In this document: piece by piece, positions 41,345-50,711 of the stretch
Layout: each line of letters opens with the position of its first letter
Position numbering within the stretch: position 1 is the stretch's first letter
Translations under genes and position numbers: made by a program
Source: an uncultured Campylobacteraceae bacterium
Lineage (GTDB): Bacteria > Campylobacterota > Campylobacteria > Campylobacterales > Arcobacteraceae
Assembly: GCA_937138295.1 (NCBI GenBank)
Contig: CAKZOX010000019.1
Location: 1 to 64,000 of the forward strand
Length of the DNA: 64,000 nucleotides
Reading direction: 5' to 3'
Notes under the pieces: generated by a model
What the model was told of the DNA's origin: nothing
What the model saw: the letters and a program-made list of their open reading frames with translations, nothing else
The model's database searches: none

Positions 41345-41685
41345 AGTTTGACTTTTTCATTTATCTTGAAAAGTAAATCTCTAGCTTCGTAAAATTTTTC
41401 TTTATCTTCTAACTTAACTTCATCAAGTAATGGCAAGTATTTTAAAAATACAGGCCATACTTTTTCGTACCCATGGGGTCTTTTTTTCTCAAAATATAGA
41501 GCTAAAGCAGTTGCCCCATTTATTAATCCCTTTAAAGCTAGTGCTTTTTTCTTTTGTCCTTGTTTTTTATATAAGTTCCAATCATCTTCAAGAAGTTCAT
41601 GACCTTCTGCAAACCAACCATTTTCTAAAGAATAAATAAATCTTTCAATTGCTTTATCTTGAAAAAACTTTTCTTTATCATACAT
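41341..41685 (-). CDS. DUF309 protein
   Basis: A 114-residue helical protein with the DUF309 signature: ENGWFAEGHELLEDDWNLYK then ALKGLINGATALALYFEKKR. The family is widespread in bacteria and plant plastids; function unknown. It begins within the last bases of uvrA (8-base overlap), so it is co-translated with uvrA. Confidence 0.88.
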   Translation of the reverse strand: MYDKEKFFQDKAIERFIYSLENGWFAEGHELLEDDWNLYKKQGQKKKALALKGLINGATALALYFEKKRPHGYEKVWPVFLKYLPLLDEVKLEDKEKFYEARDLLFKINEKVKL

Positions 41686-44494
41686 ATTTTAGCTCTTTAG
41701 CAAGATAATATCCTGTATGTGAACCACTTTTTTCATGGTTTTTTGCTAAGGCTTCAGGTGTACCTTCATCAACTATATTACCACCTTTACTTCCACCTTC
41801 AGGACCAATATCTATAACCCAATCAGAGTTTTTGATAATATCAAGATTATGTTCAATTACAATTACAGAGTTTCCTAATTCAACTAAGTGATGAAGAACT
41901 TTTGTAAGTCTATCAACATCTGCAAAATGTAAACCAGTAGTTGGTTCATCAAGAACATATAAAGTATTTCCAGTATCTTTTTTACTTAATTCTTTTGATA
42001 ACTTAATTCTTTGTGCTTCTCCACCTGAAAGTGTTACAGCATTTTGTCCTAAAGTAATATAACCTAAACCAACATCAACTAAAGTTTGTAGTTTATCTCT
42101 AATTTTAGGTACTTTTACAAAAAACTCTAAAGCCTCTTCAACACTCATACTTAAAACATCAGAAATATTTTTACCTCTATATAGTATTTCTAAAGTTTGG
42201 GCGTTGTATCTAGTTCCTTGACAATCATCACATTTAACCATAATATCTGGTAAGAAGTGCATTTCAATTTTTATTTCACCTTCCCCTTGACATTTTTCAC
42301 ATCTTCCACCTTTAACATTAAAAGAGAATCTTCCTATTTTATATCCTCTTAGTTGTGACTCTTTTGTTTGTGAAAATAAGTTTCTAATTTCATCCATAAG
42401 TCCTGTGTAAGTTGCAGGGTTTGATCTAGGAGTTCTACCAATTGGCGATTGGTCAAGATAGATTACTTTATCAAGTTTTTCTAATCCTGAAATCTCAACA
42501 CCATCAACTTTATTTACTTTTCTTGCATGGTTTAAAAGTTCTTTTGCAACAGGAAGCAGTGTTTGTAAAATAAGTGAAGATTTTCCACTTCCTGATACCC
42601 CTGTAATTGAACAAAGATTTTTTAGAGGAATTTCTACATTTAAATCTTTAATATTGTTGATGTTTACGTTTCTAATTTCAATAAATTCTTCTTGTGGTCT
42701 ATTATGAACATAATCAATTTTCTTTTTGCCACTTACATATTGTGCTGTCAAAGTTTTTGCTTTTTGCATTTGTTTTAAAGTTCCTGCAAAAACAATTTCT
42801 CCACCAAACTTTCCAGCATTTGGTCCAATATCAACTATATAATCAGCTGATTCAATAGTTTCTTTATCATGCTCAACAACAATTACAGTGTTACCTTTTT
42901 CTTGTAATGCTCTTAAAGTTTTGATAAGTTTATTAGTATCTCTTTCATGAAGTCCAATTGATGGTTCATCTAAAACATACATAACTCCCGTAAGTCCAGA
43001 ACCAATTTGTGAAGCGACTCTAATTCTTTGAGCTTCTCCCCCTGAAATTGTTCTAGCATCTCTACCTAAAGTAATATATCCTAAACCAACATCATGTAAA
43101 AAGAATATTCTTTCTTTTATTTCTTTTAAAATAGGTTTTGAAATCATTTGATCTTTTTGAGAAAAATGTTCAAAGTTTTTCTCATCTTGGAAAAATGCAT
43201 GGGTATCTTCAATTGGAACATTAATTACATCTGATATTTTTTTACCAGCTACAAAAACAGATTGAGATGACGGCTTTAATCTATTACCATTACAAGAATC
43301 ACATACTTTTTCAGTCATGTATTCAGCCATTTCTTTTTCATCTTTAATCATGTCATAGGCAAGTTTTACAATACCTTCCCATTTTCTAGTAAGTTTGTGC
43401 CTTTTCCATGTAAACTTAGCTTCCTCAACTCCACCATGTAAAATAGCTTTTTGTTGATGCATTGGTAAGTCATTAAAAGGAGTTTTAATATCAATTTCAG
43501 CTGCTTCACAATAAGCCATAAGCATTTTAAAATAGAAACCTTTATTAAATCCATAAATAACTTTTATGGCACCATCTTCAAGTGCTAAATCTCCATTTAC
43601 AACTTTTTTCATATCTAATGCATATCTTATACCTAACCCATCACAAGAACTACAAGCACCTTTTGGTGAGTTAAATGAAAATGATAGTGGTTCAAGTGGT
43701 TCAAATGAAATTTTACAAGAAAAACATGCCATATGTTCAGAGTAATGAATATGTTTTTCAACTCCAACATCTTCATGATTTAAAACTTCAATTTCAAGTT
43801 CTCCAAAAGATTCTTTTAATCCTTTTTCAACATCTTGAGCTATTCTGTCTTTATTTTCTTCTTTTACAACAACTCTATCAATTACTACTTTGATAGTGTG
43901 CATTTTGTTTTTTTCTAATTCAATATCTTCATCAAGTCTTGCCATAACTCCATCAATCATAGCTCTAACATAACCTTTTGTTCTAAGACTTTCTAAAAGG
44001 TCTGCAAATGTTCCTTTTTTTCTGTTGATTAGTGGTGCTAGTATTACAAGTTTTGAATTTTCTGGAAGTTTTAAAACTTGATCAATTACATCACTTGCAC
44101 TCATTTGTGAAATAGCTTCTCCACATTGATGACAATGCTGTTTACCAACTCTTGCGTACAATAATCTTAAGTAATCATAAACTTCCGTAATTGTTCCAAC
44201 AGTAGAACGTGGATTTTTAGAAGTTGTTTTTTGGTCAATTGCAATTGCAGGAGTTAAACCTTCAATTCTTTCTACATCTGGTTTCCCAACTTTATCTAAA
44301 AATTGTCTTGCATATGCAGATAATGACTCAATATATCTTCTTTGACCTTCTGCATACAAAGTATCAAATGCTAATGTTGACTTTCCAGAACCTGATAATC
44401 CAGTAAAAATAATAAGTTTATTTTTGGGTATTTCTAAATTAATATTTTTTAAATTATTCTCTTTGGCATTAAAAATTTTAATAGTATCTCTCAT
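41678..44494 (-). CDS. uvrA: Excinuclease ABC subunit A
   Basis: A 938-residue ATPase that scans DNA for bulky lesions with UvrB in nucleotide excision repair. Two ABC ATPase halves: Walker A GLSGSGKSTLAFDTLYAEGQ near residue 35 and GVSGSGKSSLILQTL in the second half; signatures TISGGEAQRIRVASQIG and TLSGGEAQRIKLSKEL. Zinc sites: CHQCG, CFSCK...CSSCDGLG and CEKCQGEGE...CDDCQGTRY. Full length and all motifs intact. DUF309 follows with overlap. Confidence 0.98.
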   Translation of the reverse strand: MRDTIKIFNAKENNLKNINLEIPKNKLIIFTGLSGSGKSTLAFDTLYAEGQRRYIESLSAYARQFLDKVGKPDVERIEGLTPAIAIDQKTTSKNPRSTVGTITEVYDYLRLLYARVGKQHCHQCGEAISQMSASDVIDQVLKLPENSKLVILAPLINRKKGTFADLLESLRTKGYVRAMIDGVMARLDEDIELEKNKMHTIKVVIDRVVVKEENKDRIAQDVEKGLKESFGELEIEVLNHEDVGVEKHIHYSEHMACFSCKISFEPLEPLSFSFNSPKGACSSCDGLGIRYALDMKKVVNGDLALEDGAIKVIYGFNKGFYFKMLMAYCEAAEIDIKTPFNDLPMHQQKAILHGGVEEAKFTWKRHKLTRKWEGIVKLAYDMIKDEKEMAEYMTEKVCDSCNGNRLKPSSQSVFVAGKKISDVINVPIEDTHAFFQDEKNFEHFSQKDQMISKPILKEIKERIFFLHDVGLGYITLGRDARTISGGEAQRIRVASQIGSGLTGVMYVLDEPSIGLHERDTNKLIKTLRALQEKGNTVIVVEHDKETIESADYIVDIGPNAGKFGGEIVFAGTLKQMQKAKTLTAQYVSGKKKIDYVHNRPQEEFIEIRNVNINNIKDLNVEIPLKNLCSITGVSGSGKSSLILQTLLPVAKELLNHARKVNKVDGVEISGLEKLDKVIYLDQSPIGRTPRSNPATYTGLMDEIRNLFSQTKESQLRGYKIGRFSFNVKGGRCEKCQGEGEIKIEMHFLPDIMVKCDDCQGTRYNAQTLEILYRGKNISDVLSMSVEEALEFFVKVPKIRDKLQTLVDVGLGYITLGQNAVTLSGGEAQRIKLSKELSKKDTGNTLYVLDEPTTGLHFADVDRLTKVLHHLVELGNSVIVIEHNLDIIKNSDWVIDIGPEGGSKGGNIVDEGTPEALAKNHEKSGSHTGYYLAKELKYV

Positions 44495-44586
44495 ATCTCA
44501 CCTTTGAAAAAATAAGTGAATATTATATGATAGATTGATGTATTTTAGGCTTAATAAATGGCTTACTAATTTTAATTTGGCTATAT

Positions 44587-44592
44587 TATAAT
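44587..44592 (+). promoter_or_regulatory. -10 box of the aconitase-like gene
   Basis: TATAAT at 44587-44592, within the uvrA/aconitase-like divergent gap, about 26 bases before the TTG start. Confidence 0.45.
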
Positions 44593-44618
44593 AACGAAAA
44601 ATAATATTGGGTGATGAA

Positions 44619-47159
44619 TTGACAAAATTTGAAAACGAATTGACATATGGTGATACAAGTTTTTACTATTGTGATTTAAGAAAAGTATTTGAACAGTATC
44701 CTAAACTTAAAAAATTACCTAATATTTTAAAATTACTATTAGAAATGAATCTTAGAAATCATCAAGAATCTAGTATTGAGGATATTATTGAAGCATTTTT
44801 AAAAAGAAATAATGAGTTTGAATTAAATATTACTCCAACTAGATTACTTATGGATGATATTAATGGAATTCCACCTTTAATGGAATTTACACTTATAAAA
44901 GAACATCTTTACTCAAAAAACAATGATGTATCTAATTTTAATCCACAAATAATGATTGACTTAATTGTTGACCACTCTTTAATTGCCCAAAGTGTAGCTA
45001 CAAATCATAGTTTAAATACAAATTTAAAAATAGAAATAGACACAAATAAACAAAAGTATCATTTCCTAAAATGGGTAAGCCAAAATTTTGAAAACATAAA
45101 TATAGTTACTCCAGGTTTTGGAATAGGTCATCAAATAAACCTTGAACATCTAGCAACTATGATTAGTATTGAGGAATTTAACGGAAAACAATATATGATT
45201 CCTGAGTCACTTTTAGGAACTGATATTCACACTAATATGATAAGTAGTTTGGGAGTTTTATCTTATAGTATTGAAGAAACTGATTGCTTAACTTCAATGT
45301 TAGGTGCTCCTGTACATATTACTTTACCAAAAGTTTTAGGTATAGAAATTATTGGAAATAAAGAAAACTATCTAAATGTAACTGACATTGTTTTAAATCT
45401 TACAAACTTTTTAATAGAGTCAAAATTGAATTATGATTTTGTTGAATTTTTTGGGGATGGGGTAAAACTATTGTCATTGGAAGATAGAGCTACTATCACA
45501 AATATGTCTAATGAATATAATGTTAAATGTGCCTATTTTAGTGTAGATGAGGAAACAATTAATTATGCTGAAAAGACAAGAAATGTTGATGCCTCATTAA
45601 TAAAAGATTACTACAAAAGACAAGCATTGTATTTTAAAGAAGATATACAATTAGAATATGATGAAATAATTCAATTTGATTTATCTCAAGTAAAAGCAGC
45701 AATTGCAGGTCCTAAATATCCATTTGCAAAAGTGAACTTAGAAAAAGTGCCAAGTAAATTGGAAAGTTTTAAAAGAGGAAATATTTTAAGGGATAATGAT
45801 ATTGTTTTAGCTTCAATAACTTCTTGTTTATCTACATCAAATCCATTTCTAATAATTCAAGCTGGATTATTAGCAAAAAATGCAATATCAAAAGGTTTAA
45901 GTGTAAACCCAAATATTAAAACTTCATTTATTCCTGGTTCTAGAACTGTTAAAAAATATTTAGAACAGATAGGGCTTCTAGTATATTTTGAGAAATTAGG
46001 TTTTTCAATAAATGGATATGGTTGTGCTGTTTGCTATGGTAATAGTGGAGATTTATTTACAAATGTTGAAAATGAAATAAAACAATATAATTTAAATTTA
46101 TCAAGTGTAAGTTCTGGAAATAGAAATCAAGAAGGTTTTATTCATCCTTTGATTAAATCAAATTGGATTATGTCACCTGCTTTAGTAATTGCATATTGTC
46201 TAAAGGGAAGTGTTAATTTTAATATAAAAAGTGACTTAATCTCAAAAGGAACATATTTAAATGATATTTGGCCAAGTGATATTGAAGTCAATAAACTTGT
46301 TAATCAAATAAATTATAAAGAATTTTCTAAAAAATATATGAACATATTTTTAGGGGAAACTCATTGGCAAGAGATAGATACAGATGAATCTATTTTATAT
46401 CAGTGGAATAAAAACTCTTTAATTATTAATCCAATAAATCATATAAAAGATGTTTATCTAACAAAAGTGAATTTAAATTACTCTTCAATTATTTCAATTT
46501 TAGGAGATGATGTTATAGGTGAAGATATTATGCCAATGGGTAAAATAACAAAAGACTCAAATGCAGGAAAATATCTTTTAAGTTTAAATGTTCATGAAGA
46601 TAATCTAGGTACATATGAATCTAGAAAAACAAATTATGATGTTTTAGTTAAATCTGTTTTTTCTAGTGTAAATATTAAAAATCTTATTATTCAAAAAGAA
46701 GGTGCATTTACAAAAGATTTTATAAATGATGAAACGATTGAATTAGAAGAATTTGCAAATAAATCAAAAGCTTCAAATACACCAATATTAATTTTTACGG
46801 GTAAAAACTTTGGAATTGGAAAAAACTTAGATGCAGCAGCTAAGGCAATGAAACTATTAGGAATAGATGTTGTCATTTGTGAAAGTATTAATGAAAGTTT
46901 TAGAAAAAGTTTAATTGATTTTGGTATTTTCCCTTTAAAACTTGAAAATCAAAGTTTAGAATCATTAAATTTATTAGGTGATGAAAAAATATATGTATAT
47001 TCTTTAAATCTAATTCCTAATGAGAAGCTTCAAATAGAAATAACACAAAATAATAAAATGAAAAAAGTGTTGGTCTCATCACTCTTAAAAACAAATAATG
47101 AGATTATATACTTTAAAAATGGTGGAAAAACATCATATTTAATGAAAAATCTGATATAA
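44619..47159 (+). CDS. Aconitase-family protein with degraded active site
   Basis: 846 residues, all four aconitase A (AcnA/IRP1-type) domains recognisable. Kept: D118-H119 (VDHS), D202 and H204 (GTDIHT), E276 (VEFFGDG), N501-R502 (SGNRN) and the three cluster cysteines C403 (ITSCLSTSNP), C469 and C472 (GYGCAVCYGNSG). Lost relative to aconitase, from memory of the conserved residues: the serine of GTDSHT (I203), the second arginine of GNRNFEGR (F507), the arginine after 'MM' in domain 4 (K678), and the catalytic GSSRD serine and arginine, here GKNLD (K735, N736, L737). So it probably binds a 4Fe-4S cluster but cannot act as a normal aconitase. TTG 44619 follows GGTGAT; TTG 44607 is the alternative. 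Confidence 0.88.
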   Translation: MTKFENELTYGDTSFYYCDLRKVFEQYPKLKKLPNILKLLLEMNLRNHQESSIEDIIEAFLKRNNEFELNITPTRLLMDDINGIPPLMEFTLIKEHLYSKNNDVSNFNPQIMIDLIVDHSLIAQSVATNHSLNTNLKIEIDTNKQKYHFLKWVSQNFENINIVTPGFGIGHQINLEHLATMISIEEFNGKQYMIPESLLGTDIHTNMISSLGVLSYSIEETDCLTSMLGAPVHITLPKVLGIEIIGNKENYLNVTDIVLNLTNFLIESKLNYDFVEFFGDGVKLLSLEDRATITNMSNEYNVKCAYFSVDEETINYAEKTRNVDASLIKDYYKRQALYFKEDIQLEYDEIIQFDLSQVKAAIAGPKYPFAKVNLEKVPSKLESFKRGNILRDNDIVLASITSCLSTSNPFLIIQAGLLAKNAISKGLSVNPNIKTSFIPGSRTVKKYLEQIGLLVYFEKLGFSINGYGCAVCYGNSGDLFTNVENEIKQYNLNLSSVSSGNRNQEGFIHPLIKSNWIMSPALVIAYCLKGSVNFNIKSDLISKGTYLNDIWPSDIEVNKLVNQINYKEFSKKYMNIFLGETHWQEIDTDESILYQWNKNSLIINPINHIKDVYLTKVNLNYSSIISILGDDVIGEDIMPMGKITKDSNAGKYLLSLNVHEDNLGTYESRKTNYDVLVKSVFSSVNIKNLIIQKEGAFTKDFINDETIELEEFANKSKASNTPILIFTGKNFGIGKNLDAAAKAMKLLGIDVVICESINESFRKSLIDFGIFPLKLENQSLESLNLLGDEKIYVYSLNLIPNEKLQIEITQNNKMKKVLVSSLLKTNNEIIYFKNGGKTSYLMKNLI

Positions 47160-47240: not shown

Positions 47241-47795
47241 ATGAAGAATCATATTTTAAATTATCTAATAACTCCTATTATTTTAATTGTTGTTATAGTG
47301 GTGATTTCTTTTTCTCCTACATTTTTCCCAAAAAATACTATTTCAAATGTTAACAAAAGTATAAAAAGTGATTTCTTCAAAGATAAAAAAAGCGAAAATA
47401 TAATTTTGTTCTTTGGATATGTTGGATGTGTTGATATTTGCACACCTAGATTAAAAGAGATATCAGATGTTTATGAAGAAATAAAAGATGACATTGATGT
47501 GAAATTTTATTTTATAAATTTAACTGATAGTATTAGTAATGAAATTGCAGATTTATTTGTAAAAAACTTTAACAAAGATTTTACCGGTATTCAATTGCAA
47601 AAAAAAGATTTAGTAACATTAAAGAATGATTTTGATGTTTTTAGTGTAAAAAGCTTAGTTAGTGATTATGATTTAGATCATACTTCATTTCTTTTTTTAG
47701 TGAAAAGAGAGAATGATGAATATAAAATAAGAAAAATATTCACAGCTAGTAAGTTTGAAAAAGAGATTTTAGTAAAAAGTATTTTAGGAAAATAA
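47241..47795 (+). CDS. SCO1/SenC-like membrane-anchored thioredoxin-fold protein
   Basis: A 184-residue protein with one N-terminal membrane helix (about 8-28) and a periplasmic thioredoxin-like domain. C63 and C67 in GCVDIC correspond to the CxxxC copper site of SCO proteins, and H147 (LDHTSFLF) to the third ligand. The usual proline after the first cysteine is replaced by valine. Classical role: copper delivery to cytochrome oxidase CuA or thiol reduction. Here it is followed by three signalling genes, starting three bases away, so it may serve as a copper or redox sensor. Confidence 0.82.
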   Translation: MKNHILNYLITPIILIVVIVVISFSPTFFPKNTISNVNKSIKSDFFKDKKSENIILFFGYVGCVDICTPRLKEISDVYEEIKDDIDVKFYFINLTDSISNEIADLFVKNFNKDFTGIQLQKKDLVTLKNDFDVFSVKSLVSDYDLDHTSFLFLVKRENDEYKIRKIFTASKFEKEILVKSILGK

Positions 47796-47798
47796 ACA

Positions 47799-49502
47799 AT
47801 GTCAATTATAGGTAGTTTATACGAAGAGGAAAGCAACAGCAATTTAAAAACTGATCATCAAAAAGCTGATAAGTTTATGATGCAAATTATGTTTCTAAAT
47901 TGGGTGTTAGTTTCAACTTTTGGTGGTTATTTTTATCAAACTTATATGTTTGGATTTATAACAGGTGGAATTCTTTTTATTACATCATTTATCTTTTATA
48001 AACTTTATTCTGGTAAAGCAATTTTTAGAATTATAATTGGAATTTTACTTCCAATTTTTGCAATGATTTTAGTTCAACAAAGTTTTGGACGAATTGAGAT
48101 GCACTTCCATTATTTTGTATTATTGGCTTTCTTAACAATTTATAAAGATTATAAGCCTGTAACTATATCTGCTATTGTAATAGTAATTCAGCATTTAGTG
48201 TTTACATATTTACAATTAAACGAAGTCTCTTTATTTGGAATTAATGTAATTATTTATAATTACGGATGTTCTTATGATATAGCTTTATTACATGGTTTTT
48301 TTGTTTTACTTGAATGGACAATTTTAAGAATAATTATTAAAAATAACATACTAAATTTTGAAAAAATACATGAATATAAAAGTAAACTTTTAAAGAAATC
48401 TTTAGATGTAATAAATCAAAATCTTATTGCTTCTAAAACTGATTTAAAAGGAATTATTACAGAAGTTAGTGATAAATTTTGTGAAATTTCTAAATATTCT
48501 AGGGAAGAATTAATTGGAAAAAGTCATAACATTGTTAGACACCCTGATATGCCTGTAGAGTTGTACAAAGATATTTGGAATACTATAAAATCTAAAAAAA
48601 CATGGCATGGTGAAATAAAAAACTTAGATAAAAATGGCGATGCTTATTGGGTAGATACAACAATAATTCCTGATTTCGATAGTGATGATAATCATGTAGG
48701 ATATACATCAATTAGACATGATATTACAAACAACAAGAAAATAGAAGTTTTAAATACTCAATTAATTGATGAAATGACTGAAAATAAGAAAAAAGAGTTA
48801 TTATTAATTGAACAAAATAAAATGGCTGCTTTAGGTGAAATGATTGGAAATATTGCCCATCAATGGAAACAGCCATTAAATACTATTTCTATAATAGTTT
48901 CAGGATTAAAACTTGAGAAAATTATGGGAACATTAAAAGTAGAAGAGCTTGAAAAACCTTTTGATGATATTTTAGATTCAATAAATTATTCATCAAATAC
49001 AATCAATACTTTTAAAAACTTTGTAAAAGAGAAAAAAGAGAAAAAAGAGATGATTGTTCAAGATAGAATTGAACAGTCTCTTAAAATTGTAGGACCTGTT
49101 TTAGAATATAATGATATACAATTAAAGCTTGAATTAAATAAAGATAAACCAATTTCATTTGTGTCTGTTTCAGGTGAATTAGATGAGGTTATTATCAATA
49201 TTTTAAATAATGCAAAAGATGCAATTATCGAAAATAAAATAATAGATTCTTGGATAAAAATAGAAGTTACTAAGAATGATTCAAAATGTATTGTTTCAAT
49301 AGAAGATAATGCAGGGGGTATTCCGGATCATATAATTGATAGTATTTTTGATCAATACTATACTACAAAAGAGAATTCAAATGGTACTGGTATTGGATTA
49401 TATATGAGTAGAAGAATTATAACAGAAACATTAAATGGTGATTTATATGTTAAAAATAGTGAAAATGGAGCTAAGTTTTTTATAGAATTTAATACAAATT
49501 AG
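47799..49502 (+). CDS. PAS-domain membrane histidine kinase
   Basis: A 567-residue kinase. About six N-terminal membrane helices (30-190) of MASE-like type, PAS domain of the Aer type (about 205-310: GIITEVSDKFCEISKYSREE, HNIVRHPDMP, YWVDTTIIPDFD), then coiled coil, H-box NIAHQWKQPLN with H354, N-box NILNNAKD, G1 IEDNAGGIPDH, F-box FDQYYTTKE, G2 NGTGIGLYMSR. The NIVRHPDMP PAS often binds FAD or heme for redox/oxygen sensing. Three bases after the SCO-like gene, so the two are likely one functional unit. Confidence 0.9.
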   Translation: MSIIGSLYEEESNSNLKTDHQKADKFMMQIMFLNWVLVSTFGGYFYQTYMFGFITGGILFITSFIFYKLYSGKAIFRIIIGILLPIFAMILVQQSFGRIEMHFHYFVLLAFLTIYKDYKPVTISAIVIVIQHLVFTYLQLNEVSLFGINVIIYNYGCSYDIALLHGFFVLLEWTILRIIIKNNILNFEKIHEYKSKLLKKSLDVINQNLIASKTDLKGIITEVSDKFCEISKYSREELIGKSHNIVRHPDMPVELYKDIWNTIKSKKTWHGEIKNLDKNGDAYWVDTTIIPDFDSDDNHVGYTSIRHDITNNKKIEVLNTQLIDEMTENKKKELLLIEQNKMAALGEMIGNIAHQWKQPLNTISIIVSGLKLEKIMGTLKVEELEKPFDDILDSINYSSNTINTFKNFVKEKKEKKEMIVQDRIEQSLKIVGPVLEYNDIQLKLELNKDKPISFVSVSGELDEVIINILNNAKDAIIENKIIDSWIKIEVTKNDSKCIVSIEDNAGGIPDHIIDSIFDQYYTTKENSNGTGIGLYMSRRIITETLNGDLYVKNSENGAKFFIEFNTN

Positions 49503-49522
49503 ATTAATTAAGTTTTTAATGT

Positions 49523-49528
49523 TATAAT
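49523..49528 (+). promoter_or_regulatory. Internal -10 box before the REC-kinase gene
   Basis: TATAAT at 49523-49528 in the 72-base gap, 46 bases before ATG 49575; allows separate transcription of the REC-kinase and cyclase genes. Confidence 0.4.
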
Positions 49529-49574
49529 CTACATTATATTACTAAGAATGTGATAGATTGACTGGAACTAAATT

Positions 49575-50711
49575 ATGAAAAAAAACAAAATATTAATTGT
49601 AGATGATGATAAATCAAGTCAAGATCTAATGGCAACTATTTTACAAAAAAATTATGAAATTAAAGTTGCAAACAATGGAAAAATTGCATTAGAAATTTTG
49701 GATATCTATACAATTGATTTAATTTTACTTGACATAAACATGCCTGTAATGGATGGTTATGAGTTTGCAAAAGTTCTAAAGAAAACAAAAAAACTAAAAC
49801 ACATTCCTTTTATATTTTTGACTACAAAAAATAGTGAAGATTCTATAGTTGAAGGCTTTAATTTAGGTGCTAAGGATTTTATATCCAAACCAGTAAAAAA
49901 AGAAGAATTAAAACTTAGAATAAAAACACAACTAAAAATTTCTAAACTTCAAAACAAACTTCTATATAAAATTAATTTAATTAAAACAAAAAATGAAATT
50001 ATATTAAAGCAAGAAAGATTAAGTGCCATGGCTGAGATGTTAGATGCAGTTGCTCATCAATGGAAACAACCTTTATCTATCATACTTTTAAATATTGAAC
50101 AAATAGTTATGGAATTTAACTATGATGCTTTAACTAAAGATTCTGCAAATAATCTTTTAGAGCATATAAAAAAACAATCACATCATTTAATTGATACCTT
50201 AGATGATTTTAGAAGTTTCTTTAGAAATGATAAAGAGATTATTCCTTTTAGCTACTATGATATGATTGAGAGTGTTAAAGATCTTATAAAAACTGAATTT
50301 ATTAAAGAGAATATAAATTTTGAAAATAAAGTTGATAAAACCATTATGATAGGGGCTAGTAAAAGTGAATTTAGACATGTTTATATAAACCTGATAGCAA
50401 ATTCAAAATTTGCTTTTAATGATAATAATATAAAAAATAAAAAAATCACAATTTCTAATTACACTGATGAAGATTACAATTACTTTACCTTTGAAGATAA
50501 TGCTGGTGGAATTAAAGAAGAGATTATCAAGGATATTTTTAATTTAAATGTAAGTGGTAGAAAAGAGAAGGGTGGAACAGGTACAGGTCTATATCTTTCA
50601 AAAATAATAGTAGAAAAGTACAATGGAACTATATCTGTCGAAAACAAAAATAAAGGTGCATGTTTTACAATTAAACTACCTAAGTTAAAAGAATTAAGTT
50701 CTAATAGTTAA
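49575..50711 (+). CDS. Receiver-histidine kinase hybrid
   Basis: A 378-residue soluble hybrid: receiver domain 1-120 (acidic D10-D12, phospho-acceptor D53 in LLDINMPVMDG, lysine in FISKPVKKEE), coiled coil, then kinase core with H161 in VAHQWKQP, N-box NLIANSKFAF, G1 FEDNAGGIKEE and G2 GTGTGLYLSK. No membrane helix. Receiver-first kinases usually take phosphate from another kinase and tune their own output. Likely the next step after the upstream PAS kinase; nine bases before the cyclase gene. Confidence 0.9.
   Translation: MKKNKILIVDDDKSSQDLMATILQKNYEIKVANNGKIALEILDIYTIDLILLDINMPVMDGYEFAKVLKKTKKLKHIPFIFLTTKNSEDSIVEGFNLGAKDFISKPVKKEELKLRIKTQLKISKLQNKLLYKINLIKTKNEIILKQERLSAMAEMLDAVAHQWKQPLSIILLNIEQIVMEFNYDALTKDSANNLLEHIKKQSHHLIDTLDDFRSFFRNDKEIIPFSYYDMIESVKDLIKTEFIKENINFENKVDKTIMIGASKSEFRHVYINLIANSKFAFNDNNIKNKKITISNYTDEDYNYFTFEDNAGGIKEEIIKDIFNLNVSGRKEKGGTGTGLYLSKIIVEKYNGTISVENKNKGACFTIKLPKLKELSSNS

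Follow-up and report, generated by a model that had tools for sequence, protein, structure and literature searches.

A family of AcnA-derived pseudo-aconitases at the uvrA locus of Arcobacteraceae, probably kept for a non-catalytic role

We analysed a 64,000-nucleotide stretch of DNA (the window; positions 1 to 64,000 of contig CAKZOX010000019.1, assembly GCA_937138295.1) from an uncultured member of the Arcobacteraceae, which carries an AcnA-derived gene at positions 44619..47159 of the + strand. This gene, referred to here as the pseudo-aconitase gene, was delimited with domain and NCBIfam models and by aligning its start with those of relatives. It is a single intact open reading frame encoding 846 amino acids, the first base of which is part of a TTG codon; because this codon aligns with the ATG starts of relatives, it is likely to be the start of the gene. 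The leader in front of it (44535..44618, + strand) contains a promoter-like element (aatttggctatattataat, about 43 nt before the start) that is common to relatives: TTTNGNTANNTT occurs upstream of 13 of the 32 full-length orthologues on which our counts are based, against 0.9 expected, mostly about 43 nt before the start. This TTAA-type element can be discerned although the AT-rich leaders of the window and its orthologues are otherwise unalignable. The divergently oriented uvrA gene (41678..44494, - strand) is a conserved neighbour that marks the orthologous locus in locus comparisons. Directly downstream and on the same strand, positions 47241-50711 encode a SCO1/SenC-like protein, a PAS histidine kinase and a response-regulator/kinase. 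An operon partner was sought and rejected, since these SCO1 and sensor genes are not conserved in relatives and the neighbours that do recur are unrelated housekeeping genes, which therefore provide no clue to function. No PADLOC match linked the gene to a defence system.

The encoded protein belongs to the aconitase superfamily, as judged by its two Pfam domains, Aconitase (PF00330, E 2.4e-100, 337 bits) and Aconitase_C (PF00694, 50 bits), both above their gathering cut-offs, and by the aconitase fold of its AlphaFold2 (AF2) model. These were the only domains in the Pfam scan, which found neither an AcnB domain nor the AcnX domains. Identity to AcnA is about 34% (31-35%), in keeping with the first-pass annotation, which had described high divergence in an intact frame. 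Residue comparison shows that the three cysteines that ligate the 4Fe-4S cluster are present, C403 (TSCLSTSNP; 45825..45827, +) and C469-x-x-C472 (YGCAVCYGNSG; 46023..46034, +), as are nine substrate-side residues of E. coli AcnA (D118, H119, H171, D202, H204, N295, E299, N501 and R502 in the window protein), and on both counts the first-pass annotation was right. It was also right that the catalytic GSSRD motif reads GKNLD, with K735-N736-L737 (46821..46829, +) in place of the catalytic Ser-Ser-Arg (S776-S777-R778); no serine or arginine lies near this motif in the sequence that could supply the lost pair. The lost serine corresponds to Ser642 of mitochondrial aconitase, the catalytic base. 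Two of three further catalytic replacements that had been proposed also hold, I203 in GTDIHT (45225..45227, +), where active aconitases have serine (S213 of E. coli AcnA), and F507 (46137..46139, +), which replaces Arg539, the second arginine of GNRNFEGR. The third, K678, does not; it sits in 'VLVK' facing the conserved arginine of the 'RGTFAN' stretch, which is absent from the listed active-site residues of IRP1 and mitochondrial aconitase. Two changes had been overlooked, namely Q89 of E. coli AcnA to D79, and the TTDHIS motif to GEDIM (G634, E635, D636, M638). Of the arginines common to the substrate and RNA sites, R502 is kept and the others are replaced by F507 and L737.

The window protein fails the AcnA equivalog model TIGR01341 (727.1 bits, cut-off 945) and passes the looser AcnA subfamily model NF006757 (775.8 bits, cut-off 686); it falls below the cut-offs for AcnD (TIGR02333, 493 against 1419.85 bits) and AcnB (NF006690, 17.6 against 782 bits). 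It thus resembles AcnA and IRP1 (PDB 2b3x) in its full-length four-domain fold and, in the window member, the cluster cysteines, but differs from them in lacking the catalytic Ser-Ser-Arg, Arg539 and TTDHIS and in scoring below the TIGR01341 cut-off. AcnD, a 2-methylisocitrate dehydratase, is of similar length but has a whole active site, and AcnB shares the superfamily but differs in domain order. NCBIfam AcnA models recognise all 24 clade members tested (E<=1e-50), and catalytically dead copies are likely to be annotated as aconitate hydratase. We note that the member from genome G061 passes the AcnA equivalog cut-off despite having GNTRD in place of GSSRD.

An aconitase-like match to the window protein was present in 100 of 104 genomes of the same bacterial family, and motif, tree and locus sorted these matches into three groups: AcnD, an ordinary AcnA in one genome (G033), and the divergent form found beside uvrA. 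This last form occupies the same locus, between uvrA and a TSUP permease gene and always in the same orientation, in 37 Arcobacteraceae genomes (36 plus that of the window) from eight genera; Poseidonibacter lekithochrous, P. ostreae and Arcobacter MAGs are among the hosts that have a name. In a phylogeny with AcnA and AcnD, a comparison the first-pass annotation had proposed, the pseudo-aconitases form a separate clade with 100/100 support. Pairwise distances within the clade track those of the housekeeping neighbour (Mantel r 0.715, 0/2000 permutations), and the window groups beside G083 whether the tree is built from this gene or from uvrA; both results indicate vertical inheritance. A contaminant contig in the MAG was ruled out, as the window's uvrA is 92% identical to that of G083 and the locus order is conserved. 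A plasmid search with the region gave no match. The window protein as a single query for related loci gave no match, and the clade alignment as query retrieved 13 named loci; when 397 genomes of the phylum were searched with a profile of the clade, no clade member turned up outside the family, where matches were almost only AcnD. AcnA-like matches from another family proved on inspection to be normal, with GSSRD. In four of the genomes checked (G058, G097, G084 and G079), which do not have the gene, uvrA lies directly beside the permease gene; such clean empty sites show that the gene, although useful, can be done without, and it is mainly characteristic of certain genera. Truncated copies are present in G098 and G089. 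Genome G079 also encodes a second UvrA-like protein (G079:C1:1236908-1238767), which shares 37% identity with the UvrA of the window.

The catalytic serine is gone in 31 of the 32 full-length orthologues, the sole keeper being G057 (GSARN), and parsimony accounts for this pattern with one basal loss and one return. The close relatives of the window protein carry GVVRD or GNTRD, so the possibility that they have retained the normal GSSRD, which the first-pass annotation had raised against its own reading, can be set aside. Loss of the cluster ligands looks different: all three cysteines persist in just three proteins (those of the window, G083 and G061), 29 of 32 lack at least one and 12 lack all; the tree requires a minimum of 4 to 8 changes at each cysteine position. 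In G065 (L114, 671 aa) and G067 (L115, 622 aa) residues ~366-570, that is the cluster-cysteine domain (domain 3), are missing in frame with nearly identical boundaries, which points to deletion of the cluster-bearing domain in one or two lineages. We infer from this pattern that the active site was lost first and the cluster later, in many lineages; the protein of G061, nearly intact apart from its serine (GNTRD, all three cysteines, R534), agrees with serine loss as the first step. The G061 and G057 proteins also suggest that not every family member need be fully dead. The recurrence of the same kind of loss in all orthologues nonetheless points to more than chance. Within the clade, conservation is lower in the pocket columns than in the other columns that do not vary in AcnA and AcnD (0.52 vs 0.67, p 0.007), and the Ser776 position itself varies among K, E, N, Q, D, V, S and T.

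By several measures the family is under purifying selection. In nine close pairs within the clade dN/dS was 0.055-0.19 at dS 0.2-0.7 (0.02-0.05 for uvrA of the same genomes), the pairs standing in for the window protein itself, which has no sufficiently close relative (best identity to any relative 47%). Each main domain gave 0.11-0.17, and a 60-residue linker was loosest at 0.27. None of the 32 full-length frames contains a stop codon. Seven residues (N48, F64, E200, L265, E292, D704 and I812 in an 850-aa numbering) are invariant across the full-length members and distinct from the AcnA and AcnD references, and about 40 further clade-specific residues are conserved in at least 75% of members. 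The proposal that the protein is a pseudo-enzyme under selection is thus supported at the level of the family.

AcnB is encoded in 103 of the 104 genomes of the family. The window's genome has a normal AcnB, split over two contigs (C215 and C14 of G000), so the elsewhere-encoded acnB that the first-pass annotation had named as a check is in place. Since AcnB is nearly family-wide and present in the window's genome, no aconitase activity is required of the pseudo-aconitase gene. AcnD is present in most genomes that carry the pseudo-aconitase gene; unlike in most such relatives, it was not found in the window's genome, which is 87% complete. A paralogue of ~870 aa that we considered as an ordinary AcnA is AcnD (TIGR02333, 1515 bits). 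This agrees with the genome paper of Arcobacter butzleri (PMC2147049), in which AcnB is given as the TCA-cycle enzyme and AcnD as that of the methylcitrate cycle. Genome G033 encodes four aconitase-type proteins (AcnA, AcnB, AcnD and pseudo-AcnA), and its ordinary AcnA, with GSSRD and all cysteines, lies at another locus (L024, G033:C5:122440-125064) and was probably acquired horizontally.

The AF2 model of the window protein (pLDDT 85.7, pTM 0.83) indicates that the fold is retained. Segments below pLDDT 50 (120-134, 168-173, 404-407, 468-475 and 502-507) fall in loops in or next to the former active and cluster sites. The best-matching solved structures are bacterial AcnA (9a4j), IRP1 and IRP2, and the S642A mutant of mitochondrial aconitase is among the PDB matches. 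The form from G067 that lacks domain 3 is likewise modelled as compact (pLDDT 85.9, pTM 0.83).

Taken together, we consider it reasonably probable that these proteins constitute an Arcobacteraceae-specific pseudo-aconitase family kept for a non-catalytic job on the aconitase scaffold. Sequence comparison shows that the catalytic residues are lost, that the gene is inherited vertically at a single locus under purifying selection, and that cluster ligands have been lost repeatedly; from the same comparison we predict that the family has no aconitase activity. Catalysis is gone, the pocket drifts, the cluster is dispensable, and the fold and some surface or core residues are fixed. This is most simply explained by a binding protein, and action through binding, as a scaffold or regulator, seems most likely. 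The history could have begun with a normal AcnA-type gene beside uvrA that suffered a single loss of the catalytic serine at the base of the clade; with AcnB serving the TCA cycle and AcnD the methylcitrate cycle, the dead protein would have been kept because its folded scaffold offers a binding surface. A candidate partner would be another protein, for example a TCA or methylcitrate enzyme, for which it might act as a scaffold or an allosteric pseudo-subunit.

IRP2 is an aconitase relative without aconitase activity, and it is the next-best structural match to the window protein (PDB 6vcd). It differs in being an animal protein of separate origin that binds RNA and FBXL5 and keeps NSRD. A more specific and more tentative suggestion, one we would hold at somewhat worse than even chances, is that the family is a dedicated bacterial counterpart of IRP2, which dropped catalysis, repeatedly the cluster and even the cluster domain, and serves solely as regulator or scaffold with clade-specific residues fixed.

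A related but unlikely alternative is that the dead AcnA acts as an IRP-like regulator, binding mRNA hairpins between its domains as apo-AcnA or IRP2 do, with the cluster possibly serving as a switch where it is kept. Apo-aconitases of several bacteria are reported to bind mRNA (PMC7527780, PMC4150767, PMC3912134). The Mycobacterium and Streptomyces regulators (PMC7527780, PMC3912134) resemble our family in using the AcnA scaffold non-catalytically but differ in that their active site is intact and they are bifunctional enzymes. Of two IRP1 structures, the window model also fits the RNA-bound one (3sn2, TM 0.79) slightly better than the closed one (2b3x, 0.73), although with rmsd >5 this is weak. 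However, the family has largely lost the arginines that in IRP1 act on both substrate and RNA (R534 kept in 6/32, R539 in 4/32, R778 in 8/32), domain 3 is absent in G065 and G067, family members are acidic (pI 5.0-5.9) and not basic, and no IRE or other Rfam match lies within the 10 kb around the gene (40-50 kb), which is weak evidence. IRP-like RNA binding is possible but not specifically supported, and for the same reasons our first guess places a protein partner ahead of RNA.

Less probable again is the idea, put forward in the first-pass annotation, that the retained 4Fe-4S cluster makes the protein an iron or redox sensor and that selection has kept the cluster. Retention of the cluster ligands holds for the window, G083 and G061 proteins, which keep all three cysteines, but not for the family, in which ligand loss is the rule and two members lack the domain altogether; the cluster loops are also modelled with low confidence in the window protein. 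The three keepers are not related exclusively to one another, so the all-cysteine state is ancestral, and the cluster site of the window protein seems to be left over from the ancestor. The window protein may still bind a 4Fe-4S cluster, and iron or redox sensing may occur in its lineage, but the function conserved across the family must be a different one. We give slightly lower odds still to an enzyme with new chemistry, in which the pocket has been rebuilt for a different substrate: some pocket residues remain common (D128 in 28/32, D212 in 26/32) and clade-specific residues are fixed, but the would-be catalytic positions vary from member to member and the pocket is conserved less than the rest. 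Slow decay of a gene made redundant by AcnB is very improbable, for although it evolves at 4.6 times the rate of uvrA and truncated copies and empty sites occur, the low dN/dS is seen at well-diverged synonymous sites, the frames are free of stops, and at 0.08 stop mutations per nonsynonymous change the ~700 replacements on the window's branch should have been accompanied by dozens of stops.

The non-catalytic binding role that we favour thus belongs to something larger than the single protein first described, namely a lineage-specific pseudo-aconitase family that annotation models label AcnA. We found no description of this family in the open-access papers that we searched. Moonlighting is known for bacterial aconitases, yet in the cases known to us the protein is still an enzyme. 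In this family catalysis appears to have been lost first and the cluster afterwards, so that a non-catalytic role would be separated from the enzyme in a clean genetic system, one that could be studied in cultured hosts (Poseidonibacter lekithochrous, P. ostreae) and in close relatives without the gene. Moreover, because members match the models used to name AcnA, an enzyme that is absent may be counted when the metabolism of these bacteria is reconstructed.
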